A DNA stretch of 64,000 bases, from contig OX485803.1 in the NCBI GenBank assembly GCA_950295325.1, positions 57,985,554 to 58,049,553 on the forward strand. The letters are read 5' to 3'. A program made the position numbers and the translations under genes. The notes below the pieces were generated by a model. The model saw only the letters and a list, made by a program, of their open reading frames with translations. It ran no database searches and was not told the origin of the DNA. The stretch is from Polytrichum commune (taxonomy: Eukaryota > Streptophyta > Polytrichopsida > Polytrichales > Polytrichaceae). Below, piece by piece: positions 14,107 to 54,315 of this stretch (positions within the stretch are counted from its first letter, which is position 1; each line of letters opens with the position of its first letter).

Positions 14107-14245
14107 CACTCAGCCCCCACTCAGCTAAAGGTTTTTTAATCCGGTGGGGGGGAGGGGTTGCCCGCTACCATAAGAAAGATTATCTCTCTCTTCTAGGTGG
14201 ATGCATGGTTGAGTGGCTCACTTTTTGTGTCACACCCTATTTTAC
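14107..14245 (+). repeat. Left arm of long-range inverted repeat flanking the two-gene element
   Basis: Positions 14196-14220 match the reverse complement of 24011-24035 at 24 of 25 bases; the core is ATGCATGGTTGAGTGGCTCA. Outside the core both arms carry a G-tract of the form GGGGGGGAGGGG preceded by a T-run and a CCCACT-like block. The left arm has about 40 extra bases between the G-tract and the core. Inside the core both have a CA(C/T)ACCCT(A/G)TTTT block. The arms therefore look homologous over about 70 bp or more. Confidence 0.55.
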
Positions 14246-14992
14246 AGTGTACCCCCGTGCATTGCAAGCCACGTTGCATACAATTTATAGCAGCTATGGA
14301 TGTGAGATTTGGGCCACTCAAAGGTAACTTGAATAGGTAGATGACCACATATTCCTTTACATGAAATTCTTCTTCAATTAAGGGTGATGGACTTTTGAAA
14401 ATACAATATGGACTGTGGTCAACAGGTTTTGGTTTAGGAATTTTGGCGTAAACGTCAAGAATTTTTTTGCATTCTACTAGGAGTGACTATGTATGTTATG
14501 TGATCCACTATGAGGTCCATAGTAGTGATGTTTTTTTGCACATTATGTGTGTAAATACAGTTCATATGGACTTTTAAGTAGGCTAAATGACGACGTTTTT
14601 TCGAAACTCCATACTTGGGGCAAAAATAATCGTTTTTCATGATTTTTTTTCTGGAAACTACTCATGTACAATGTGTTCAGGTGGGCTTCTTGTCAAAAAT
14701 CCCACCCTTACTTGCTATACTACAATCATAGAATTGGGGTTTTCGGGTCCCACCGACTGTGGGAGGGTGGATGTGGATGAGTTTAGTTGTAGAGTGAAGT
14801 GCACACTGACGGGTGTGACCCGCCACGTGGACTACAACCCTCTGGTTTAGGGTTTAGGCAATCTGAATGTTCTCCACCAGTTTTGCGTTGCCCGTTGCAG
14901 CTCGCATGTCTCTTGTTCAAACCTGCAGGTGCTCGTCATGTGCAAGAGGAGTGAGGTTTAGGGTTCAACTTGTGTGTGTGTTGCTCGCGGAA
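14246..14992 (+). other. Upstream region of the DDE-transposase-like gene
   Basis: No gene was recognised. Near 14844-14858 there are two adjacent telomere-type repeats (TTTAGGGTTTAGG), and another TTTAGGG lies near 14956. Such telo-boxes are common in plant promoters of proliferation-linked genes. Their meaning here is unknown. Confidence 0.4.
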
Positions 14993-17900
14993 ATGGGTAG
15001 TGCGAGAGCGAGAGATAGGAGGGCAGGTATTCGGAGAGAGGGCCCTGTGGAGAAGGCGAGAATCGATGTTGCGCAAGAGCGGGCGAGGGAGCGCCAACGC
15101 GAATCACGGCGTCGGAGGAGAGCAAATGCATCGAACTCCGTGCGTGTCAACGTGGATGCGGGATCCTGCTCGGAGGGTGATGACGCGTATGCTGATGGCG
15201 TCAACCGCAGATTGGTGCGCCGGGACGTTGTGGCAATCTTGGGCTGCGTTCAGAGGACTTTGAGAGGAAGAGGGCGGTTGCTTCCACACAAGCAGGCAGT
15301 AATGCGGTCGGTGTGGAACAATACTATGACGAGGGATCTCCTGCCACTTGGGACACGGAGGGTTTGCAATGAAACAGATGCGCGACAGACAATTGTGTCC
15401 AGTTTGTTGCAACCGCTGTCGGAGGTGAAGACATCGAAGACACAGGCCCATTTAGCTACAAAACATGCTATCCTTACAGCCGCTGTGACGAATCCAACGC
15501 GAGTCTCTGCCCGCCAGACAGCTCGCCTGCTAGGCGTTCATCCCGCAATGTAGCGATGGCCACACAGAGGCGAGTGACGATGGTCAGGTTCGTGCATATG
15601 GAGTGGACTTTGTCCGTCAGGAAGATAAGGAGCGATGCGACATCTTCGATGGTACAAGACATTGTCACTGCGTGGTGGGCTGCAGAGACACGGCCAAGCC
15701 CGAATCGCAAGGAAGTTGTAAGGAAGTGGGTTGCTCCAAAAACATATGTTCAACACCATGCTCAATATTTGTTGGAATCTCTGGTGGGCGCTCTCACATC
15801 TATGTAGAATGTCTCCTTGCATTTTTTTTTTGTGTAATGCTGGTGTCTGCATTTCATAGGAGCAATCTGTGAAGCTTGGCACTTCTGATGGAGTTTTGAA
15901 TCTCTAGGTTTTTTACTGTCGCAGTTGATTGCAATAAAAACATGGGTTCTACTTTGTTAGGATGTGATTGTTTGTAGGATTTCAGGTTTTCCTTGCGACA
16001 GAGGATGCAGTAGGCTTGGAATCGAATCTTGGATTATATTTTGATATTCTAGGGTATATTGAGCATGCTGGCATCTTCAATGCTGGTATTGAGCATTGCT
16101 GGTATTGAGCATGCTGGCATCTTCAATCTGTGAAGCTTGGCACTTCTGATGGAGGTCTTAATCTGTAGGTTTTTTGCTGTCAGAGTTGATTTACAAACAA
16201 ACATGGGATCTACTTTGTCTTGAAAGTAGTTGCACATACATCTGGATGGATGCAATTTGCAACTGCCTATGTATGTTCAGGGATTTATATAAAATCCGTC
16301 AATATTGAATTCACATGTTTGAGTCAGGATTTTTCTCCTGCACCAATTTGCATATGTAATTTGTTGTTAATTCAGCCATCCGAAATGTTGGATCCCAGCA
16401 GAAAATTTGCAAAGGTTTTAAATGGAAATGCTTTTAGTTATTTTCCTGAAGCCTTGGACTTTGACTGGAGATTCCGTCGTAGTTTAGGGATGCATCATCG
16501 GGCTTCCTGTACACCTATGTAGAATGTAAACATGCCATTGCGACTTCTGGACTCTGTGGACCTTTGCACGCATGGGTGGAAGTTCAGGGTGATCCGTTTG
16601 GGTCTTCATGGGAAATGTTGGAGTTTATTTACTTCTCCAACCACTGTATGTACTACGGTGGACATGCTACAAAGTTCCCATGTAGAATATGGGAGGGTAT
16701 TGTCAATTTATGGAATGTTTAGATATGGGCGCTTCATGTATTGACATCTTTGGGGTTTCTCACCAATCCTTTGGAGTGTATGCAGTAAAGTATTGAATAT
16801 GTGGACTATTGGAGACGTTATATGCAATGTGTGGGAGTTCATGGACTTCATATTGAGTATATGGAATTAATTGTGTAATTCTAGACTGTGTGGACAGTTA
16901 CCCAAGGTGAGGACTTGGATTTGGGGTTCATGGATTTTTTGGGAGTTCTTGCAAGAAATATATGACAATATGGACTGTACAGAACATCTATGGAGTGCTA
17001 CAGGAATTTGCAAACCCATAACTTTTGCTGAATTTCTTCTTGGTGTATTCGTGTGACAGATGGCGTTCTATATGCGCTTCCGTGAGGCCCATCCCGAGGT
17101 AATTGTCGGTAAGCGTGTTTTTGATTCCATGCAACCATACTGGGTGAAAAAATTGCTAGAGAGAAATGTGTGTTGTTGTATATACCACGTAGAAATGGAG
17201 GAATTGCTATCTGCATTTACTCAATTGAGGACAAAATCAGGTATACACAACAAAGTAGATTGTGTTTGTCAATGTGAGGTCTGTCTCAGTGAATCAAATG
17301 TGGGGCATTGTGTTGCGGGAGTGTTTGTGTATCCTGGTCTGACAGCCATTTCAGATGCAGTGTTGTGCCCAAAACCTCCTAATTCAGCGTGGCATGCAAA
17401 GGATTGTTTGTTTGGTGAATGTATGTGCTGCGGTGTGGACATTCTACCCATGTGTCCTACAGAAGAGGATGGATTGTCTCCTATACCTGTGCAATGGAAG
17501 CATTACGAGATGCAGTCAATCACTACGAGGAAAGGTCTACAACGGAAGAAACTGCAGTTGGTTTACAAAGATACAACATCGCGTGAGTTAATCAAGTACC
17601 TCAAGCTTAAACTCCAATTTTTTGTGCGTCATAGTTTTGTGGCGAAGTGGGAGGATGAACAATTTAGGACGTGCTTGAGGACCTCCCCCGCAGACACAAT
17701 GGTGTCCGTCATTGACTATGCTGAAAACTATTCTTTTGAGGTGCAAAATGAGGTCCAATCCATGCACTGGCATAGCTACCAAATTAGTATCCTTGTACAC
17801 ATAGCATATGTCCGAAATCCTCACCCAGATCCACATGATGAGAGCACACGTAATATCACGAGCTACCATTTCTACATTAGTGATGATATGAAACATGAAA

Positions 17901-18954
17901 GTTATTTTGTGCAACACTGCCTCATGTTGCATTGGGAAAGCCAGGGGGGTTTCATACCCAAACATCACTGGATATGGTCCGATGGCTGTGCAAATCAGTT
18001 TAAGAGTCGAGTCCCCTGGTACTTTGTAGCTCGGTATCCAGAGATTACCGGTGGTTGCACGTGCATGTGGTCTTCTTTTTGGAACAGGGCATGGGAAAGG
18101 ACCGCACGATGGGGCAGGTGCTGTCCTGAAACGGTACATTCGAACTGCCCAATTGGACATAAATGGCCCGAAGCTACAGTGCGCTGAAGATGTGGTCGGT
18201 TACTTGAGGAAAGAGTTGAGTGACCGCCCTAAAACTGTCTATGGCGATAGGAGGCCTATGAATAGAACATTTTGGCATGTTCTCGAAGGAGATGTTGACA
18301 GGGAACATGAGTACGATTGTGAGCCCATACCTCGTTGCAGAGACTTGCACTCTATTCGCTCCGTCGACAGCATGGAGGTTGGTAAGTTGTTGAAGCGCAC
18401 TTTGGCATGTTTTTGTTTCTCATGTATTGAAGGCAACTGGGAGGAGTGTGAGAATAGAGCTTGGGCTGGGGACTGGGAATTGGAGGTCTTAGTGCCATTG
18501 AATGCTGCTTATGTCCGGAATGTCCAGCTGAATGAATTTTTGGTGGAGGATTGGCATGCATCATGTTGGAGTAAATGGTACGTATTTTGCTTCAATACTC
18601 GAAGTGGGTGATAACTTTGTTGTTGCAGCTTCCCCTGATAATGAAGAAAATGTAGATTTTTATGTTCTTGTATGCACTAGGAAAGCTTACACTTGTAAGA
18701 CAACATTTGTTTGCAAGTGGGGTGAGGAATTTATACCGGGAGATCAGGTTCTTGAGGGACTCTACTACCAGAAGTACGGTTTAGGGGCTGATACGTATGT
18801 CCTCTTGAGGAAGTCACATAGGGCGCACATTTTAGCAGATCATGTTTGTGCAGTGAAATTTCCGATGTTGTTGTGTGATCATCGTGTGTTTGGTAATGAC
18901 CCCGTGTACAAGCTGCAGAGAAAAGTGGAAGAGGCCATTTTGGAGCAGGCGTGA
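14993..18954 (+). pseudogene. DDE-transposase-like gene with C-terminal BAH-like segment, frame-broken
   Basis: The N-terminal part (14993 to about 15783) is Arg-rich (RERQRESRRRRRAN) and then helical (SARQTARLLGVH). It shifts frame between about 15535 and 15550 and resumes as RNVAMATQRR. A phase-0 intron is likely at 15784-17059. The main part, from 17060, starts MAFYMRFREAHPEV, has a Cys/His-rich block (RNVCCCIYHVEM, VCQCEVC) and a DDE-like core: IDYAENYSFEVQNEVQ, then WSDGCANQFKSR, then GTGHGKGPHDGAGAVLKR. The frame breaks inside a T-run at 18076-18080, where one extra T restores the 18081-18611 frame when ignored. It breaks again near 18577-18590, resuming as YFASILEVGDNFVVAASPDN. That tail ends at 18954 and resembles a BAH-type or PWWP-neighbour fold only by general pattern. 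I do not know a published family name. The copy looks inactive unless the breaks are sequence errors. Confidence 0.65.
15871..16218 (+). repeat. Duplicated ~88-bp segment in the intron of the DDE-like gene
   Basis: About 15871-15958 and about 16132-16218 both run from GAAGCTTGGCACTTCTGATG through TAGGTTTTTT to TCTACTTTGT. Between them, CTGGCATCTTCAAT and TATTGAGCATGCTGG are also repeated. This is a local duplication with small later changes, lying in the inferred intron 15784-17059. Confidence 0.75.
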
Positions 18955-20455
18955 ATGCTGCCATTGCGAAGAAGGGTAATTTTAAGCCAAACCATTCCAT
19001 GAGATCTTGATAACTGTGATGTTTGTGTTATTTCCTCAACATATGATCTGCTTGTGGATCTTTTTGGCTGGTTTTAGGGGTTTGCAGGTAAATGGGCTTT
19101 CGTGGCTGGTCATTTTGGCAGTAATTGCAGTATTGAAGGTTTCTTCCAAAACTCCTGTCCTCGATTGAATTGATTATGGAGAAACGTGGGGAAGTATAAT
19201 GAGAAATCGGTGGAGATTTTTATTCTGTTGAGATAGGTTTCTGGAGATTGGTGTTTAGGTTTTTTGCTAAAGCTGCATCTCCACACACTGATTTGCATAA
19301 ACCATCCATACATATTGGGTTAGTAGCTGCATAATATTGCATAGATGTTCGCTTGAAATTCCAAATTCGGAGTTGAGGTGCAAAAAATCGTTAGAGGTTG
19401 AACTGAAGATTGTGCTTTTCTTCAAGCAACCACATAAGCCCTCCAAATAAAGGTCACTATTGAACCTTAAATGGTGTCTAAGGTACTATGTGAGCCTTAT
19501 GTGATCACTACACTCTAAACTCCATCGTATCACACCAGTGGCAACCAAAGTGCACATGATATTACGGAATTTTGTAGTGTTAACGTGGAATTTAGTTGGT
19601 ACCATCTGGTTATTGAAGGTGACTGAAGTTTTGGCCATCCAAGATGCTATCTTACATCAACCATTTGAAGAAGACATTGAACTTCTACTTTCAGACTATT
19701 CTGTATAAGCAGCAACCTTACAAACTACAACATAATTGCTGAATTAATAGCTTTTGGAGGCTTCTGACAATTCATAACTGCATACAGCTAAGAGCTTTAT
19801 TGACACAGGTTCCAGATCGCACCTTCTGGAAAATTACCCATCATTCTAGAGGAATTTAAGGAATACACCCCAATACAGCAAGGTGAATTTAAAGAATACA
19901 CCCCAAGTCATTGTGTCCTACAGTATAGACATAAAAGACATACAAGGTGTGATGAGATTGGACTAAGTTCTCAAATATAGACACCATTTAAGGATCTGAA
20001 CTGATTCTGAAACTTGGAATGACAGTCTATGCAGATCAAAATTGCTAACCAGATGAAATTATTCCCAATCCGATACAGTGGCCACAGTCAGCTCTGGAGT
20101 TAAAAGTGCCCACGACAGGCTCACATACCACAATGAGAAAAGGTGCAGAAATTGGCACAAGAGTAGCAGAGCACTTACACAACGATGAGTAGAGCTAAGC
20201 AGTGATAAAATAAAGAGACAATGTACACCAGGTATAGCAAAGTTTACTAGACAAAATTGATATTGGATCTGGATTGTGGTGGCTGGAGGTCAACGTTGAC
20301 GAGAGCCACTATCATAAGATCGTCAAAATAATGGATACAATTGCCGTTGTTTGCTATCACAAGACCGTCAAGATAATGCAATCTTGAATGCAACCTCCTG
20401 CCCAACCAGAGACAAGATTCCCACAGGATATGCAAAGACCCCTAAACCATAATCC
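18955..20455. other. Spacer between convergent genes, with a partial MITE family 1 remnant
   Basis: No gene was seen. About 19809-19915 carries family-1 landmarks (GGAAAATTACCCATCATTCT, GGAATACACCCCA, the latter in two copies) without recognisable ends. The spacer separates the 3' ends of the plus-strand DDE-like gene and the minus-strand coiled-coil/RING-like gene. Confidence 0.5.
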
Positions 20456-23400
20456 TTAAGGCCTCCCCCGCTGGGACGATCTGGTCCTCGTTGAAATGCC
20501 TTTTCGATTAGGAAGGGTCAATTTCTTCCCCTTGTTCACAGGTGAATTTTTGCGGTCATCTTCGTCACTCTCACCTCTTAGGAACCGATCAATGTGGGAG
20601 TCCTTCTGCTTAAAACATAGTTGGGACAGGGTTGGGTTGTCTTGAAAATCGTCCTCCGAACCCCCGCCTTCGTCGTCCTCGTCCGTTGAGAATTCTACAG
20701 CGTCGCCCTCAAAATCACAAGGGGCCTATGATTGAGTACCCCGCCTGGAACTGCCCAGATTCGTCTTCCTCTTCTGAGATACGTCTGCCTCTGGTAAGTT
20801 GATGGGAACCTCCTTCTCATGTGGCTGAACCCGTTGGTGGCCATTTTTTCTCTTCAACCGCCCATTGACTTCCTCGTCACCGCAGGAGAGCCTCTCTTCC
20901 CACTGCACGTCGTTCCTGGATTTTGTGCGCCTCTCTCGAAACTGCACCTCATCAGAAGTGGCGTCAGCCTCCTTCTCGGGTATGATGGAATCATATTGCA
21001 CAACGGGTGCCTGCATTTTTGGAACTGCGAACTCACGAGTGTCAGGAGGTGCCATTCGATTGGAATGTGGCTGCGGGTGAGCTGGGGGGGTGACCTTCTT
21101 GGCCACATCGTCATCTTGGCGGGGCATCCTGGTGGCCAAATCTTGAAAGCTTCCAACGGAGGGGCTTGGAGTACGTGAAGGAGCTGGTTCCCGCACCTTA
21201 TCAACCCCAAAAACCATTCGGGACGTTTGTCCAAGGTCTGCAATAGACACACACAACGATTAGTTAGCCAGAGATGTTCACAGGGTTTAGCAATATAGGA
21301 ATTGCGATCCCCTAAACCCTGGTGACAAACCCATCCATGACCACACCCATTAGTAGTTAGTAGACCTCCACACCCTAAACATACAAGTCACTATATGCCA
21401 CAATATATCAATATCACATTGAACTCTACATACAAGTCAATGATCATCCAAGCAGGAAATATAGAAACCCATTCAGTGTTGTTGACATCCCTAAAAGTCC
21501 CAACACAGTCAAAACTTCATTCAAACAATCACTAGGAAGCCAGTTTGAACACTGCACTGTCCACAACTCCTATACTACATGGTAACCCTCTACACCATTA
21601 TACAACGCTGCCAAAATTATCAAATGAACCCTAAACCCCACACTTGTTGTCAGTGGACATCCACATGAGAGGGACAGAAGCCCATTCCCACCTAAACGTA
21701 AACACTGAAGACCATGTGAAGCACATACAACATCATGTTGGCTCCATACAATCAATACCACAACAATCACCTTATCATCTATGCCAAAATTTTCAAATTA
21801 ACCCCTAACTCCTCTTTTGGCTGTCACTGGACCTGCACATGAGAGGGATTAAAGCCCATCTCCACCACACCCCAACACTGAAAACCATATGAAGTACATA
21901 CAACTCAATGTAGGCTTCTTCCAATCAATACAAACAATGCAGGGATGCCAAAATCAGACATGTATTCTTAAATTCACTGCAAGTACCCATGTGTGCAGCT
22001 ACAAAGTCTAGGAGTCCAGAAGTCCAAGCCAAGCAAGTGCCAACCTCCAATTTCCATAACATGATGGAACACGCAGATGTGGTTATCTTTCCCCCCAAAA
22101 AAAGTGGACATCATATACCTAAACCAGCATGATGTCCCAACAACAGCATGATAAACTCAAATTGGACAGAAGATCAGGGGAGTGAGGGGATTACGTGTAA
22201 GAGGTGTTCTCTCCCAAGCTGCAACCATGACGACTCCATCCTTCCCCAGCACTGGCTTCGGAATCCCTGTGCAGATCCACCAATCCTTGTGCATCTCCAT
22301 AGCACAGTCTTTGTGGATGCATTTGGTGGACTCACTGAAATGGGTGAGTGCACACCATGAATGGTAAGCGTGGCGGCAGGAGGCTAAACGACAATCCCAC
22401 GCCGGCTCAAAGCCCCGCAAACAAAATGGGCACACACCCACCTGAATTGTGTCACTGAATACAGGCTCCTCTCGCCAGTCGTTGTGGATAGCCGGCAACG
22501 GCACAGGTGTTGTGGTAGGACGCTCGTAGCCGGCCCGCATACCTCGCAGTTGGGATTGGAGTGCAATTTGGTGACGGTTCCACAAGAACTGCCTCGTCTT
22601 GGCGTTGTTCCAGGCTTCCTCGGCATTCGTCAATTTCGCCAATTCCACTATCTCTGCGTGCCGACCACCACAGGTCTCCTCAAACACGGCCATAATTCCT
22701 TTTTGGGCATCCACTCGGAGCTGGAGGCCTTCAAGATCTCGGTGTATGAAGGCCAACCCACCATCTTCTAGCCTCACCGAAACCAGTTTGGCCCTCAAAT
22801 CATCCCGCTCTGCCTCCAACTCCGACAACTTTGATTGAGCGTCGGAAATCAGCTTGCGGCCATACTCCATTTGGGAGGAGACCTTATGCAAGGTCATTCT
22901 GGCCTCTTCTTTTTCGCCGAAAAGAACCTGGACGTACCCATCCAAGCCAAGCGACTCCCGCTCCAACGTCTCCAAGCAATGTTGCCATTCTTCGATGGAC
23001 ATTGCAATTTTTTCCAGAAAAGAAATTTTGTGGCCTCGCTGCGGTATAATGCCTGCACAATTGATCCCGGAGCCGGGCACCTGCTCTCGCGAGCAGTTCT
23101 CTTTGCCCAACTGACACTCCTTCTCCGAATCCACCTCTCCCTTTAGATAAATCCCCTTGGACTTTGCGGCGTCCTCTTCCTCTGCCCGCAACTTCTTCAA
23201 CTGGTCCCGACAGGTCCACTCTGTGAAAAGGGCCCAGTTAGTTTCTTTTTTCTTCACAATCTCGTACGTAAACCCTTTAGCCTCGGAGACGTTCACCATG
23301 CGGGTGTTGGGCACCACTGTTTTTTGGTGGCAAATCATCCACATTGTCTCCACCTTACGCACAAACTCCTCATCCATTGTAGCGTATCGATAGCCATTGC

Positions 23401-23662
23401 CATTCTGCCGCGGCCCAAACAAGCTTTCCACATCCGCCTCTTCTAAATGGTGCCCAATCTTAATCTGTTTCGGGGTGATTCCTCTATTGCACAAGTTGTA
23501 TTTCTCTGCAAACCAATCCCTTGTCACTACTGACTTTCGATCCCACAGGATCTCAGGCTGGCAAGCATACAGGGGATCCACCCAGCTGCTCTTCTTCGCA
23601 CCTCGTTTTGGACACAGTAGCCTCTCCTCCGGCTCCTCCTGCGAATCCTCGGAATCGGACAT
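20456..23662 (-). pseudogene. Coiled-coil protein with RING-like zinc finger, two exons, in-frame stop
   Basis: Exon 1 runs 23662-22195 from MSDSEDSQEEPEE. The frame is open 47 codons further up to 23803, but the acidic Met is the likelier start. The phase-1 donor GTAAT at 22194 joins acceptor GCAG before 21237. Residues after the start include WVDPLYACQPEILWDRKSVV and GPRQNGNGYRYATMDEEFV. A Glu-, Lys- and Leu-rich coiled-coil region (about 22.6-23.1 kb) follows. Then comes a RING-like finger: CPFC, then DCRLASCRHAYHSWC, then CIHKDC. Exon 2 is charged and disordered. A TAG at 20728-20726 interrupts it, but the same frame continues for 89 codons with composition like the rest (EFSTDEDDEGGGSEDDF, ending RTRSSQRGRP) to TAA at 20458-20456. 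The TAG may therefore be a recent nonsense change. The function is unknown; position suggests a second protein of the same mobile unit. Confidence 0.6.
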
Positions 23663-23803
23663 GGCGTACACCTTCACGTCACCGTAACAGACGTCTCCGT
23701 AGCAGGGTACCCGGACAGCAACTCCCGAGTGTGACAAAACGTGACAGTGTGATGGCTCCGCGTGCGACAGCTCCGGGAATAGAGGACAACGCACATGCGA
23801 CAA

Positions 23804-24891
23804 AGGGAGGTCATGCTCCCAAAACCCTAGTAGTTGAGGGCCATACGATCGGGTTCCATCTAACGGCCCAAACGCATGCCCGCCAAGGAGTTTGAAAATC
23901 CATCATGGTTGGATGAATGAGGGAGCAGATTTGGATGACGGACGTTTGGCACGTGTGGACGGAGAATTTGAAGGGTATGGAGTTAAAAAAAACAGGGTAT
24001 GGTCCGGTATTGAGCCACTCAACCATGCATCTACCCTCCTCCCCCCCCCCCCCAAAAAAAAGAGCTTGTAGTGGGCAGGTGATAAGTTGTAAAGTCCACC
24101 AGTTTGTTGGCTTTGTCTGTAGGACAAAGACTATGCATTGACTTTTATGTTTCAAGAGCAAAATTCCTAACCACTTTGTGTTCATACTTGAATGTTATTT
24201 GTTCCTATTATTTCTGGTCCAGTATATTTAACGCGGATGTTAATTATAGTCATATATATCTAGTCAACTATAGTTGTTCCCTAAAATGTATTGAAAAAAA
24301 AATCTAGTTAACTATAGTTATTTTGGCAGTTGTCCAAGATCTAGAAGCTTGTATATATCGAGATGGTCTACGAAGTTGCAAAACCACCTTCACATTTTTT
24401 GATCTTGCATCTACTAATTACATATATATAATTAACATTCATTATATATGGAATTTACTTGTTTTGCAAATTTTTGGATGATAAATGAGTAGTTTCAGTC
24501 CTTCACCCACATTTGAGAAGAAGGTACACAAAATCCAGGAAAGGTTTGGTTATAGGTATAGAATAGCCATGGATTGGCATGAGCAAAGTGGACAGCTATA
24601 GTTGTAGTCTTTCATAAGAAAGGACAGAGCCTCACAGTTCTACCATTTTCTTGTTCAAGTTTCTCAAGGAAACTATGTATACACAATGAATTTACAACAA
24701 AAAAAAAACACTTGTAACCACTATGTTGTCTGATTTTGTGAGTATTATTTGTGGGACCTTACAAAGTCCAAAGTGGATGAAATGAAGCACCACTCATCCA
24801 CAGCCTCCCAACATCCAATCTTAGAATTTCTTGCTTGAAGGAGACCTAAGAATCATGGATCCACACCTTTTTCTTTTAGATACTTAGGATT
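23804..24891. other. Promoter side of the RING-like gene, right inverted-repeat arm, then AT-rich spacer
   Basis: About 23985-24078 is the right arm of the long-range inverted repeat, with its core at 24011-24035 and a C-tract at about 24043-24053. Beyond it the DNA becomes AT-rich, with TA runs near 24420-24450. No gene was recognised. Confidence 0.5.
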
Positions 24892-24996
24892 AGTTTTCAT
24901 GTAGGCCACTTGCCCACTAGATTCTAGTAAAAATGTAGATTCCACCTAATGGACGTCTACATTTCCACTAGAGTCTAGTGGGCAAGCATGAAAACT
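24892..24996. repeat. Foldback element ~105 bp
   Basis: The left arm, 24892-24939, contains AGTTTTCATG and TTGCCCACTAGATTCTAGT. It is inverted in the right arm, 24956-24996 (TCTAGTGGGCAAGC, ATGAAAACT). The left arm has a few extra bases. This is a small MITE-like hairpin. Confidence 0.75.
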
Positions 24997-46300: not shown

Positions 46301-49300
46301 GTGATAATTCTTGCAATGTAATATCTTTGCTAATTACTGACTGCGAGAGATTGCTAAAGACACGTGGCCACACTTAGAACATATTGAATGGTGATGGCAG
46401 GTATTTGAAGCATCAATCTGGGTGGTGTTGGGGTGCAATTTCATGGGGAATCGTATTCATGGCATTAGTGATCATAGTGTACTATATTGGATGGGCAGCT
46501 GTGAAGCAGATGGAAAATTTGCGGACAAACTATGAAAGAATGGAGGCTATGAAAACCCAGGCAGAAAATGCACACAAGGCCAAAAGTGAATTTCTCACAA
46601 CAGTTTCCCACGAAATCCGAACTCCAATGAATGGTGTATTAGGTACAAGTTGACATATGACATCCACTTTACATATTTTCTCGATGTGTCTCAGCTGTTG
46701 CCACTCTCAGAAGCAGATGGATGGCTACTACTATTTAAAAATATTGATCCACTTGATGCCATCCTAGATATTAGTCGAATGGAATTAAAAAGTACCGAGT
46801 TGCAGGTATGCTAGACTTCTTATTGGACACAAAGCTCGACTGTGAGCAGCTTGAGTACACAAAAATTGCGCAAGCAAGTGGGAGTGCCTTGATCTCTCTC
46901 ATCAATGACGTCTTGGACATGGCCAAAGTGGAGTCGGGCCACATGGAGCTGGAGATTAGAGAATTTTCGATTCGTGATACACTTGAGGATGTCTTAGATG
47001 TGTTCAGGGCACGTCTGAGGGAAAGTGGAGTTGAGGGTATGGAAAATCACTACGCTTTATGCTAATCTGTATATCAGTATCTGTACAAGGCCACAGGTCA
47101 TCTTATCCCTTGAAGATTTAGCGAGAACTTGTGCATAATTGTTTTTTTGTAATTCTGACTTCTTTAGAACGTGAGACAATGGGTATATAAAGGCTCCCTT
47201 TGCACCAGCCATTGGATACATCCTTCCGGTTCATAAATTCGAAACCACACCATCTTCTCTATAATAGCTCTAAACATGTTTGCATCCTTCTACAATGTAA
47301 CTTCATGAGGTGATCTTCAGCCTGCAAGATATCGGCAGCAGTCTATTCGGGTTCTGAAATGCACAAACCGTTTACAGTTGCAGCATTGGTAGATGAAGAA
47401 GTACCTGCGATTATGGAGGGAGACCCTTCTCGATTGCGGCAGGTGCTCGTGAACTTGATGGGTGCGTTTCTTGTCTCTTGACAGTACCCTCGCAATGGTA
47501 GCTACTGTACTTCCAGAGATATGGTGTTAGCCGCAACATTCGTAGCGAATTTTGTCCTTCATAGATGTTTCAAAGTCGCTTTACCATGAAGACCATTTGG
47601 TCACTTGTTCCTTGTAGATTCTTATAATTCTTATAATATTTTGGTGTGTCACTGAAGCACTTCAACTGTGAGTAATGCAATGCATATGAAGGACCAAACA
47701 AATTTACATTGAGTCTGTACAAACTTAGTTGAAACTGGCAATTCAAGGACTCATGGAGAAACGGTGGGTTCATTCAAACAGGAAATGCCCTGAAGTTTAC
47801 CGCATCAGGCCATGTACTACTACGAGTGTGTTTGTACCGGGAGAATATGATGAAGGTGAATAAGTCAGGTGAGGAAAGTAGTTGGGAAGACTCAAAGAGC
47901 ACTCCCGTGTCTCTATCGCCAAATGAGGCTCTTCAATCCAAGCCATTTTCAGATGTCAACGGACATAGATTTTCTACACATTCTCGGTATAAAGCGACTC
48001 TTAGCTTGGCTAAGAGATCTGTTGACAGGATGCGATATTCACTAGACTCACGTCATGACTCCCCCCTACCCAGCACCAAGAGAGAGAGGTATAGCTCCTT
48101 TGAAAACGTTTATGACACACTTAGCGGCAAACAAGCCCCAGATGATCGCAACAGCTGGAGCCGCATCAAACAAACCTGGGAAATGAAAGATTGTCAGACC
48201 AGGGAGTCCTCGGAGGATGGGAAATCGAACAGAAGTTCAGATCGTTCTATTGACTTAGAAAAAGGTGATGATGATGAGGATAAGAAAAAGATACCCTCTG
48301 TGATTCCCACGCCAGAGTCTCTGGATTCAGGTCATGCAGGGAGTGTGAAAGTATGCATCGTTTGTGAAGACACAGGTGCAGGCATTCCAGCTGATGCCCG
48401 AGCTCGAATTTTTAAGCCTTTTGTACAGGTTAACTGTCAACCATTTATCATGCCAAGCGTCCTTTGCTTTGTTTACCCAAATTAAAATATGTGCCACTGT
48501 CACCACCCTACATCCTGTTTGTGGACAGAGGTTCTTTTCGATAGGTGGACACAGGGTCCGAATATGTCATGGACGGGGTGTTAATTCCTCTTAAATAAGG
48601 ATGCATACATGTATGAAATTATTCTTTGCACGATAGAAACTTGTATAATTATGTGTGCAATATAGAGGTTGCTGTTATAGCTTTCGTTGCATCTTGTAAA
48701 GGTATAGATTGATGATTATGTGTGATATTGAAGCTATGTCTTAAGCACTTATGTTCTCGATATCTGTTATGGTTTTGTTTAGGCTGAAAAAAGCACTACC
48801 CGACTGTATGGAGGAACAGGCGTGGGTCTCTCCATTAGCCAACAGTTGGTAATCATATCTAAGGCTTCGCACAATAAAGTTTGAAAGCACGTTATATATT
48901 AAAGAATAATGAATGTCTTACAATATATTCTGATGAAAAAGTTTAGGAAGGGTACACTTTAGAAATTTTGTACTACTATTGTGGTGGACTTGCACAGATT
49001 TGGTTCTTTCAGACTACTAACAAGACAAGAAATGTTTCTAAAGGGGATAGCTGCAGTCCAAATGCATCAGGAAGTGCCAAAAATGGAATAAGTCTTGTGC
49101 ACAAAGTATACAAATAACAGTGGTTCAACAGTAGGTCCAAAGAACTTCGAATTCTTTCGAGGTGCAGGGGCTCATATGGGTATAGTTTGTTTTGTCACAG
49201 GTGCATTTAATGGGAGGAAAGATATTCCTGAGCACACAAGTTGGGGTGGGTACCACATTTTTCTTTGCTGTCACCTTTGGGTTGCCCGTAAAGTGTGACA

Positions 49301-52300
49301 TCAATAATGAGAGCAAGCAGAAATCAAATGAACCAGACTCAACAAGTGGCCTACATGGCAAGAGAGTCATCTTAGTGGATGGTATCCCTCTTCGCCGCAT
49401 GGTGGGTCCAGTCTCTTTCCTAGCTGCAGACACTCGGTATCTTTTGGTGGATGTTTGTTCACAAGAACCTGATTATTGAGTACAACATGTTTAGAGCCTC
49501 TTAGAATCCATAATTAAAGCACAAAGTCTTGTGAACATGCCTAGGTTTTCTCTTCATTACTTATTCTCCTTGACTAGTAGACCTTGACAAAAATAAGGCT
49601 GTACTGAGATATGCTTGGTTTAGTCGATGGGCAGACTGCAGCCAGAACTTTTCCTCATCCCTGTGCTTCTGAATGTCGACCTTTCGGTGCTTGAACTGGG
49701 ACTGTGCAATTTGTGCACCTTAGGGCATCCCCTAGTTTCAGGATATCGTTGAACATGCAGTTCACTTCTGTCGTCCTGCCAACACTTTTCCTGTGGTATG
49801 GAGAGTTCGCACTGTAAAAAGCGTTCCGTGCATATTCTGTACATCTTACATGCTAAAATGAGCTAAAATTAGAATATTTTGGCAGTTTAGCTTTGCACCC
49901 TTTTCAAGCAAGCATGCTATGGGTGGGTATGGGAATCATTAGTATGCGCTAGCTTCCTGAAGGTCTGAAAATGAGATGTGTGTGGCTTCAGATAACAGAG
50001 ATTGCACTCCGAAGATTAGGAATGGATGTGCTATCAGTGAGCAATCCGCAGACTCTGGCAGATACCATGAGTGTTTTTTATGATGAGGGAGGAAAGCCAG
50101 CGCTTGAGAAGGAGGCCTTACTGGGCATATTTAAGAGCTGGATTGCTCCCTTTACAAAATCGTCCTTTATTCAGAACCGAGAGGACTGGAAGCCTCCTAG
50201 AACAAGTTATCATTTAACACGTGACAATGAAGGATTAAACTCAGAAATTTCAGGTGCATATATACTCTTTCATTCTTTCACCTTTGAGAATGTCTACGGC
50301 AAGGGAGAACAATGGTCTCATTGATGTGGAATGTGAACGGTGGTAGTGTTTGACACATGACTTGATATGTCTATGTGCCTATTTCTAGCTACAATGTACT
50401 CAGAATTGCACCTAACCATCAGATTCACATCTGCTGCTGGGTTGACGTGTAATATTCCAAAGTAGGATTCATGTTGCATCAAATGCTGAACTTTCAGACT
50501 TGATGGAAATGTTGCAGGGGCGAATGGGCCTGTAGATCAACTGGATTCAGGGCCGGTCACCCCTGTGCGCACATCCTACCAAACTCACCTACACAAAAAT
50601 TTACAGCGATTACCATCACTTAGGTTGCCCACGGACATACCACCAGGGACCTCAGGACCGTCAGCAATGAGAGTGCACTATAATCCAACACAGGCAGAAA
50701 GACAAGTGGTTGAGGAATTCAGAAAGGGGATGAAATGTGATGTGATATTGGTGGACAAGGACTGCTTCGGGAAGGGTTCAGGTGTGGAGATGGGGAAATT
50801 CTTACAGGAAGCCCGCATAAAGTCGCCAACAATTCAACCACCACCAATGGTGCTCCTTGCTTGCAAACTTGAAGAGAACGAAAAAAATGTTCAAAGCCTT
50901 GGTTTTGGGGGTGTCTTGTTCAAACCCATCAAACCCACGGTCATGTTGATGCTGCTCACTGAGGTGAGGCGTAATACAATCATGCTAGTCCACAATTTTG
51001 AAGTTCCTGGAAAGCATGACCAGAAGGAGTCAGTAAAGAAGTGTCTGTGCAGGGTCCACAGACTGAAGTACAGATATATTCCGCTACCGTTTTCTCACTG
51101 TTTAGATAGTTGCCAATATTATGGAGTATATTATAAATCTCGAAATTTTCGGTTGTGATTAGTTTGTTTATGTTTTCTATAATTACAAAAGTAAGTTCAA
51201 CTTTTGCTGGACTGGACAGGTTATGAAGATAGTGAGTCAGCAGAACATTGTGGGAAATGCGAGAGATTTGGAGAAAGCTTCTATCCGACGTTCTCTTCAG
51301 ACCTTAATGAAGGGACTACGAGTCATGGTAATACAGTTTGCTCCTTCAGTTTCTTACACCTCATCAAGGAATACACTCACCTGGACGTGGAATTTGTGAT
51401 AGATCGTCTCCGATGAACAGTAAATGTCGCATTGGATTACCTGAGTGCTATTTCTGCATGCCTGAAAGGGCAACTGCAGCCAATCAACCAGGATAGTAAG
51501 GGTAGAATAGAAGAATGGATATTATCCTGCATAATGATATTATCCTCATAGGCTTCTTCCATCAAAGATTCACGTTATTGACTATAATTCAATATCTGCA
51601 GGTTGTGGATGATAATTATGTGAACCGTCTAGTCTCAACGAAAATGTTGCGACGGTATGGTGTGAATGTGGTCACAGCAGAGTCTGGACAACAAGCTATT
51701 GATATTCTGAAGGGAGCCGCCCATGACATAGATATTGTATTCATGGATGTGCAGATGCCAGGAATGGATGGGTCAGTTTTCTCTTCACACTCTACATAAC
51801 AGTTGAATGTTTTCTGACCTCTTCAACTTGCAGCGAGGTTTTTTTTCCAGGGATACCGGTACTGTAGTGGGAAATAATTAATAGACTTTGCGTGACTGCC
51901 GGAGTAACTGCCAAATTTTCTTATTGTTTCATGGTTACAATCAAATTCTTCTGAACTGAGAGTGGATTGTCAAGAAAGAGAATTCCGCTGAAGGTAACTG
52001 GGATATTTGTATTGGCATTCACAATCGATTGTCTGGGAATTCTCTAGATTGTCTTAAATAAGTATTTTGATGTGCTCCGTAGGTTTCAGACGACAACAAA
52101 GATACGTGAATTGGAGACAGCTGGTGAGATTGTCAGAAATGAGATAGTGATGTCTTCGATGGCGATTCAAAGGAAACGTCGGCTGGTTGTGATGGCTATG
52201 ACGGCAGATGTATTCTCTACCAACAGTGAGAAGATTGCAGCTGGCAAGATGGACGGTTTTATCACAAAGCCAATTGACGAATACCAGCTCTACAGAGCTT

Positions 52301-53249: not shown

Positions 53250-54139
53250 GTGGATGAATTTGGTGGAGTGGCGTGTGCCTCCGAGAGGAAGGCATCCTTT
53301 CATTGGCCACAAGCACGTGGGCTGGGGTGCCCCGGTGACCCGGCTGTTCACTGGGCGGGGCGGTTTCCCGTGACTGTAAAAGTGAGTGACCACGTCGACA
53401 TTCTAACGGCCCAAGCCCCGGGTCCGGCAATTCTCCGGGTCACTGGGTCCCCTTGCTTCAAAGGCATATTTCCTCGACCATTTAGGCCACTTGGTGTGTC
53501 CATAGGCTTGCTCCAGAGTCCAGAGTTCCAAGGTGATGAATTTTTTAGGCCTTGTAGGTAATCTATTTGCAGAAATCGCAGTAAGTTGGAGTGTTTTATG
53601 GGTAAGCTAATTTTGCCGTGGTTGCTAATTTCTTCACGTAAGGCAATGTGACAGTTTTCTCGCCCAGTTTAGTGAGTTCATCTCGTTACTTAAGAATGGA
53701 GTTCTTAGCCCTCATAGCAATCAGTTTGTAGCATTTACAGTTAGTTAAGAGTGTTTGCAGTGCTTCACTATTGAAGTCAGAATTCCCTCCGCAAATAAGT
53801 GGGTAGGACTACCTTGTTGCTTGAGGAGGGAATATTTAGCGCTTGTAGGGGTCATTTTGTTAGTGGGATCCGCAGTTAGATAAGTTGGAGTGTTCTGGAG
53901 TAGAATAGCTACGTCTGCAAGTTTCTTCACTTGGAAGTCACGGGGTTTGAGTGCCGGACACGAGGTGCCGGTGCCATGGCGGAACTTGAAGTGGAGGGTC
54001 AAGACCATAGAGGTGCAGTTACGTCACCACGCAGTACTCTATTTTGTGCAGGACCTTGTTATGGAATTGTCGTGGATCTAATACCGCGGTTCGGTTGGAG
54101 TATACGATCAGAGATTCAATTCCGGTGATGAACGATCGG
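53250..54139 (+). promoter_or_regulatory. Probable promoter region of the ABC1K gene, with G-box
   Basis: A GC-richer stretch than its surroundings. CATTGGCC (a CCAAT box in reverse) lies at about 53301-53308 and a perfect G-box CACGTG at 53314-53319. A second ACGT core (CCACGTCG) follows near 53391-53398. G-boxes are common in light-responsive plant promoters, which fits a plastid protein, but about 2.5 kb separate it from the start codon. A leader intron would be needed: an acceptor (TTCCTCAG) lies about 16 bp before the ATG. Confidence 0.4.
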
Positions 54140-54315
54140 AAGGAATTAGACTAGCGCTCGAGGCGCGCGCGGTTCTTGTGAGCGATTGCGCTTCAAGGTG
54201 ATATTTTCATACGAGCACTTACAGGTGAAGGAATTAGACTAGCGCTCGAGGCGCGCGCGGTTCTTGTGAGTGATTGCGCTTCAAGGTGATATTTTCATAC
54301 GAGCTCTTACAGGGG
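54140..54315 (+). repeat. Exact-period tandem duplication, 2 x 88 bp
   Basis: 54140-54227 and 54228-54315 are nearly identical, with about two or three differences. Each starts GAAGGAATTAGACTAGCGC, contains the GC-rich CTCGAGGCGCGCGCGG and ends ATACGAGC(A/T)C(T)TTACAGG. The low divergence marks a young duplication. Each unit ends in a CTTACAG|G motif that could serve as a splice acceptor. Confidence 0.9.

Follow-up and report, generated by a model that had tools for sequence, protein, structure and literature searches.

The stretch of DNA considered here, referred to as the window, comprises 64,000 nucleotides of the genome of Polytrichum commune (assembly GCA_950295325.1, contig OX485803.1, positions 57,985,554 to 58,049,553 of the forward strand). 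Between window positions 14195 and 24036 it very likely carries a copy of a family of two-gene DNA transposons in which a Sola-like transposase of the DDD type is accompanied by an accessory RING partner protein that is maintained by selection and inherited together with the transposase. The element, bounded by an inverted repeat, measures 9,842 bp, in good agreement with the mobile unit of about 9.9 kb encoding two proteins that had been proposed in a preliminary description of this DNA, and copies sharing the same ends and genes occur elsewhere in the genome. Both genes are found in copies a to h, whose main blocks show about 86–94% DNA identity to the window.

Element Ends and Genomic Copies

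The 25-bp inverted repeat with one mismatch reported earlier is present at 14196–14220 and 24011–24035, with 96% identity between the arms, and it marks the true ends of the element, which lie one base further out at 14195 and 24036. Comparison of copies defines a left terminal inverted repeat at 14195–14220 on the plus strand, with the family motif GGGTGGATGCATGGTTGAGTGGCTCA, and a right terminal inverted repeat at 24011–24036 on the minus strand, with the family motif GGGTAGATGCATGGTTGAGTGGCTCA. The end motif read from the family copies is GGGT(G/A)GATGCATGGTTGAGTGG, and its outermost left G is replaced by A at window position 14195. A 21-bp core, with up to three mismatches allowed, occurs twice in the window, once in each arm, and was found in none of 100 shuffles. 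Further features had been described as shared by the arms. The block CACACCCT/CATACCCT does sit within the element ends, whereas the G-tracts on both sides fall beyond 14195–24036 and were rejected as a component of the ends.

Searching with the left end (194 bp) yielded 14 other genomic matches, 13 of which begin exactly at window position 14196 and one four bases earlier, and the 22 other matches to the right end begin at positions spread over 24035–24038. The ends are thus common to other genomic copies, as had been expected, and homology stops at the arms, neither well inside nor well outside them. A search of the 407.8-Mb genome (64 contigs) for the 22-bp end motif, with up to two mismatches, gave 45 matches, and the reversed control gave none. 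Thirty of these matches pair by their coordinates into 15 inverted pairs, and every one of the 15 encloses both a transposase match and a partner match. The remainder consist of eight internal right-end-like sites, two sites in copy m on contig C5, which retains a right part only and lacks a left end, one site beside a partner gene on contig C2, and four weak matches. As 41 of the 45 matches can be attributed either to one of these elements or to a partner gene, the four weak ones being left out, an unrelated high-copy repeat was rejected as the source of the core, and the concern raised on this point in the preliminary description can be set aside.

Target Site Duplications and an Empty Site

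Exact 4-bp target duplications are present on both sides of 11 out of the 14 elements sampled, which represent the family of the window copy together with three groups of more distant relatives; the sample excluded copy j, the three elements of group B and other groups. The duplicated sequences are ATTA, TTGA, TTGA, AAGA, TATT, TCTA, ACTT, ATAA, ATAT, ATAA and TGAA, the last belonging to an element designated G. When ends were drawn from different elements as a control, 4 bp agreed in only 5 of 182 pairings, and duplications of 3, 5, 6 or 8 bp were each found at none of the 14 elements. Flanking duplications had been predicted for copies of the unit; those of the window copy itself, TTCT at 14191–14194 and TCCT at 24037–24040, probably represent a 4-bp target duplication with one mismatch.

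Element G, whose transposase shows 40% identity to that of the window, is nested inside copy c, and the same site is empty in copy d, where a single TGAA is present. A distant cousin has therefore inserted as a unit with defined ends. Together with the 4-bp duplications and the ends themselves, this empty site identifies these elements as transposons.

Co-Occurrence of the Two Genes and Selection

Co-occurrence was examined within this one genome, across element families. Sixty transposase loci were compiled from 104 match rows, after dropping 43 rows below 139 bits and one fragment of copy i. The 88 partner loci comprise 60 retained from 83 rows, from which 23 extra pieces or tandem genes at listed loci had been dropped, together with 12 and 16 loci picked by eye from 101 and 72 rows, respectively, each not already listed. 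Of the 60 transposase loci, 48 have a partner downstream in convergent orientation within 20 kb, and 53 have one within 40 kb; under uniform random placement the corresponding means were 0.15 and 0.27, and no more than 3 such loci were obtained in any of 1,000 runs. No divergent arrangement was seen at any of the 60 loci. That the two genes form a single unit, which had earlier been no more than a supposition, is borne out by their common ends, by the 15 end pairs that all enclose both genes and by the convergent partner at 53 of 60 loci.

The pairing is kept down to about 40% transposase identity, and partner identity falls along with that of the transposase. Transposases of 94–95% identity to that of the window are accompanied by partners mostly of 90–92% (69% for copy f, which carries stops), those of 83% by partners of 58–60% and those of 67–68% by partners of 43%, and at 50–53% transposase identity the partners show 28–30% in long matches or 36–41% in partial ones. 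Both genes are under purifying selection in the window's subfamily: comparisons of the window with family-A copies gave ratios of nonsynonymous to synonymous substitution rates (dN/dS) of 0.22–0.27 for the partner (three pairs) and 0.20–0.21 for the transposase (two pairs, 337 codons). In deeper comparisons the silent sites were saturated.

The Transposase Gene

The plus-strand transposase-like gene first placed at 14993–18954 is confirmed by homology, in two parts. The first, N-terminal part (14993 to about 15806) shows 93% DNA identity to copy d; its frame is broken in the window and has an open counterpart at positions 1884–2801 of locus L042, an element of group D. The putative catalytic part, with motifs of the DDD type, extends over 17060–18954 and is likewise broken in frame. 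Between them, 15807–17059 is probably an intron, or else a spacer, and paired open frames with a gap recur in copy d and in L042 (1884–2801 and 3415–5310). The first part encodes about 300 residues (305 codons in L042) and the second about 630, and among the copies retrieved, six (a, c, d, e, f and g) retain an open second part of 632 codons.

Motifs VDFAENY, QSMHWHS, WSDGC..QFK and GHGKG..DGAGA are present in the second part of the transposase and read IDYAENY, HWHS, WSDGC..QFK and GHGKG..DGAGA in the window. Residues D219, D304 and D346 (L042 numbering), which lie within suitable motifs and are invariant in all four transposases aligned, constitute a putative catalytic triad of the DDD type. 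Comparison of the four-sequence alignment with genomes of prokaryotes and with viral contigs gave 80 and 35 pattern matches, respectively, and no confirmed relative.

The Partner Gene

Homology also confirms the minus-strand gene at 20456–23662 that had been described as encoding a coiled-coil and RING-like protein. Its first exon (22160–23662), which is open in the window and shows no internal insertions or deletions relative to copy d, encodes a conserved N-terminal domain, a coiled-coil-like region and a RING-H2 finger. The coiled-coil-like segment (22709–22975) corresponds to a sub-threshold match to CENP-F_leu_zip, and the RING-H2 finger (22319–22432) to the extent of a Pfam zf-RING_2 match that falls below the curated cut-off. 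A second exon at about 20456–21250, with a predicted boundary, encodes a low-complexity charged tail, shows 93% DNA identity to copy d and has an analogous open reading frame in L042.

The RING-H2 pattern C-x2-C, C-x-H-x2-H-x2-C, C-C is present, and all eight zinc ligands are invariant in five of five partner sequences, one per element group, which show 22–25% identity to the first. The last ligand pair of RING fingers is usually C-P-x-C; in the window protein it is C-x4-C. Comparison of the partner with PDB sequences gave four weak matches (expectation values, E, of 0.03–0.17), two of which are RING proteins (E 0.08 and 0.17). Pfam scans of partner sequences detected no domain known to bind DNA.

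Some variation in partner gene content was also seen. In group E, a representative locus (L043, C1:72560100-72564600) carries one partner gene with a downstream open reading frame that, by eye, resembles a second finger, of the RING-HC type; the apparent start of a second partner gene was also recognised by eye. Other group E elements show separate N-terminal and then C-terminal partner matches, suggesting the same tandem arrangement. Moreover, partner-like open frames of about 470–510 codons, with no listed transposase within 40 kb, occur at C1:62320649-62321896, C6:129007-130383, C3:38153505-38153813 and other sites, and these may belong to more distant elements or represent domesticated genes.

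State of the Window Copy

Judged by its reading frames, the window copy is an old, decayed member of the family. Its transposase is disrupted at three places by small frameshifting insertions or deletions, such that an intact transposase can no longer be made, and the frame of the second partner exon ends at 20726, about 90 codons short of the matching frame in copy d. The spacer between the two genes (18956–20353) has no BLAST match in the other copies compared. Copies a to h all carry extra sequence between the genes, amounting to about 6.9 kb of different sequence in copy d and to other lengths elsewhere, with nested insertions in several. Close relatives measure 15.1–15.7 kb, as do copies d, e, f and g, or more; a group C element is 9.2 kb, a group D element 8.5 kb, and in group B the ends of two pairs lie about 9.7 kb apart. 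Since the close relatives are enlarged by extra internal sequence and the distant groups fall within 8.5–9.7 kb, the window copy looks like the simpler form of the element.

Copies d and e (C1:24062755-24078455 and C1:24132894-24148594; loci L005-L008, L021 and L022) are 99.97% identical and lie in inverted orientation. They have a common right flank (545 of 545 bases) and differ in their left flanks, which suggests a local rearrangement, such as an inverted duplication or aberrant transposition, or an assembly artefact.

Superfamily Assignment and Comparison with Known Systems

The most likely superfamily is Sola, because motifs of the DDD type and 4-bp duplications are among the traits given for it, and we use the term Sola-like accordingly for a likeness in these traits. 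Sola elements are described as carrying a DDD transposase, 4-bp target duplications and variable inverted repeats, with sizes ranging from 2–9 kb to more than 15 kb (PMC10741241), and Sola1 has been recorded in the moss Physcomitrella (PMC9033089). The present element resembles them in its candidate DDD-type transposase, its duplications, its inverted repeats and its size. It differs in its convergent coiled-coil/RING partner, of which there is no mention in the accessible parts of those descriptions (PMC10741241, PMC9033089). A parallel in gene content is Sola2-Fanzor1 of dictyostelids, where a second protein also stands beside a Sola-type transposase with AT-rich 4-bp duplications, that protein being Fanzor1, which is described as having been captured by elements of several superfamilies (PMC3627910).

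Two-protein DNA transposons, including convergent ones, are already known. In most KolobokP families the transposase is encoded on one strand and an accessory nuclease downstream on the other (PMC9587614), a convergent layout like that of the present family, with which KolobokP and other Kolobok lineages also share a two-protein composition. They differ in their TTAA duplication and in their partners, which are a His-Me nuclease, KolX, a helicase or an exonuclease in place of a RING protein, and KolobokP, unlike this element, has long terminal direct repeats (PMC9587614). Kolobok and piggyBac were rejected since none of the 11 duplications is TTAA.

The genes of MuDR are also convergent. Like the present element, MuDR encloses two genes within its inverted repeats, mudrA and mudrB; besides the transposase they specify a protein that integration apparently requires (PMC6446971). 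The Mutator-like elements (MULEs) have target duplications of 8–11 bp (PMC6446971), in contrast to the 4 bp found here, and they were rejected because duplications of 5, 6 and 8 bp, which those of 9–11 bp would contain, were each absent from all 14 elements and the proteins scanned gave no MULE match in Pfam. Ginger was rejected for lack of a Pfam integrase match in the proteins scanned. PIF/Harbinger and CACTA elements generate a 3-bp target duplication; they too were rejected, as no 3-bp duplications were found at the 14 elements and there was no corresponding Pfam match. A Sola element with a RING partner was not found described in the open-access literature searched, which did not extend to the founding Sola paper, the transposase-core survey, supplements or Repbase.

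Proposed Mechanism and Role of the Partner

An autonomous element would consist of two convergent genes enclosed by short inverted repeats whose first bases are GGG. The transposase encoded by the left gene would bind the ends, cut, and join them to the target with a 4-bp stagger, thereby producing the 4-bp duplication; this cut-and-paste route is proposed from the known chemistry of such transposases. The right gene would supply an accessory protein in which a conserved N-terminal domain and coiled-coil-like segments are combined with a RING-H2 finger and a charged tail.

Several results weigh against a Sola-like transposon with a co-inherited partner. The target duplication of the window copy is imperfect, and the flanks of copies e and h carry no matching 4-bp duplication. 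Seven of the 60 transposase loci lack a convergent partner within 40 kb, one of them having a same-strand partner, and 27 of the 88 partner loci have no listed transposase within that distance. One gene without the other, a situation that the preliminary description had named as speaking against a single unit, thus does occur, but in a minority of cases, copy m being reduced to its right part. Two of the three partner queries (L042 and L043) derive from elements found via their transposase, the uniform placement used as a random control ignores the clustering of mobile elements, and copy c enters the 20-kb count of 48 loci through the partner of an element nested in it. The youngest copies compared gave dN/dS values of 0.6 and 1.7, on 28 and 15 changes, and so show no constraint. 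For the transposase there was no match in Pfam or among PDB sequences (E up to 10), and NCBIfam gave only sub-threshold, unrelated matches; an RNase-H fold and membership of Sola are consequently proposals. The choice of D219, D304 and D346 as the triad rests on their motifs, given that D212, D274, D408 and D410 are likewise invariant. Single-sequence AlphaFold2 models were uninformative both for the window transposase fragment and for the window partner exon (predicted local distance difference test scores, pLDDT, of 30.3 and 35.8, respectively). Finally, E3 ligase activity of the partner is uncertain, because of RING matches that lie below curated cut-offs and a final ligand pair of C-x4-C.

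That the inverted repeat and the two genes are unrelated repeats brought together by chance would be compatible with the decayed state of the window copy and the mismatch in its target duplication, and nothing else was found in favour of this reading; in view of the 15 inverted end pairs enclosing both genes and the 4-bp duplications at 11 of 14 elements it was rejected and has a negligible likelihood. Alternatively, the partner could be a captured passenger, or a host gene fragment carried by chance, as in Mutator-like elements. Extra open reading frames are reported to be common in DNA transposons (PMC3627910, PMC6446971), and the 27 partner loci standing apart from any listed transposase also speak for this reading. 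However, a passenger gene would hardly be convergent with the transposase at 53 of 60 loci, in families whose transposases have diverged to about 40% identity, nor would it be expected to show dN/dS of 0.22–0.27 in the window's subfamily or invariant RING ligands. On the strength of selection and convergent co-occurrence it was set aside as less likely, and we consider it improbable. Because the partner shows selection in the subfamily of the window copy and is carried along with the transposase, its function most likely lies in transposition, and it is probably an accessory transposition factor.

Two activities may be envisaged for such a factor, and they are given equal weight. The partner may mainly be a DNA-binding or architectural factor for the ends, in which the RING serves as a zinc-stabilised interaction domain. 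TnpA of En/Spm and the Myb-like protein of Harbinger are end-binding or architectural factors of this kind, and the conserved N-terminal domain, the coiled-coil-like segments, the charged tail and the atypical last RING ligand pair would all suit that function. Set against it is the lack of any known DNA-binding domain recognised by Pfam in the scanned partners, and the proposal is held tentatively. The partner may equally be an E3 ligase of the RING type that permits transposition by eliminating or modifying a host protein of silencing, chromatin or repair, as an anti-silencing factor or in the manner of the RING of RAG1. The conservation of all eight RING-H2 ligands, the weak RING matches in Pfam and to the two PDB proteins, and the downstream open reading frame resembling a second RING in one group point in this direction, but the matches remain under their cut-offs, and this proposal too is held tentatively. 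Our best guess is a dimeric RING factor that would cooperate with the transposase, acting at the ends of the transposon or else ubiquitylating a host protein involved in chromatin, repair or silencing.

More speculatively, and with rather less than even confidence, a whole clade of Sola-like transposons may depend obligately on two components, the DDD transposase and a RING-H2/coiled-coil protein whose co-evolution with it dates back to before the split of the groups at about 40% identity. Such transposons would have an E3-type factor of their own, comparable in principle with the RING of RAG1, with two tandem partner genes in one group.

Other Features of the Window

A 31-bp inverted repeat with 16 bases between its arms lies just beyond the element, at 24909–24986, and is possibly a small hairpin element. 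Tandem arrays occur at 1463–2182 (178-bp units) and 54139–54313 (88-bp units), and open frames at 47826–51158 resemble, by eye, parts of a hybrid histidine kinase.

Significance

Cut-and-paste transposons are in many cases regarded as systems of a single enzyme. A RING protein that has remained beside a DDD-type transposase over a long divergence would offer a natural way to test why some transposons encode a second protein. A link between ubiquitin and transposition has been suggested by the RING of RAG1, and the pair described here would allow testing of whether ubiquitin signalling takes part in transposition. The ends, target duplications and open reading frames needed for testing a Sola-like element are now at hand and, for genome annotation, both genes are to be treated as transposon genes and not as host genes.

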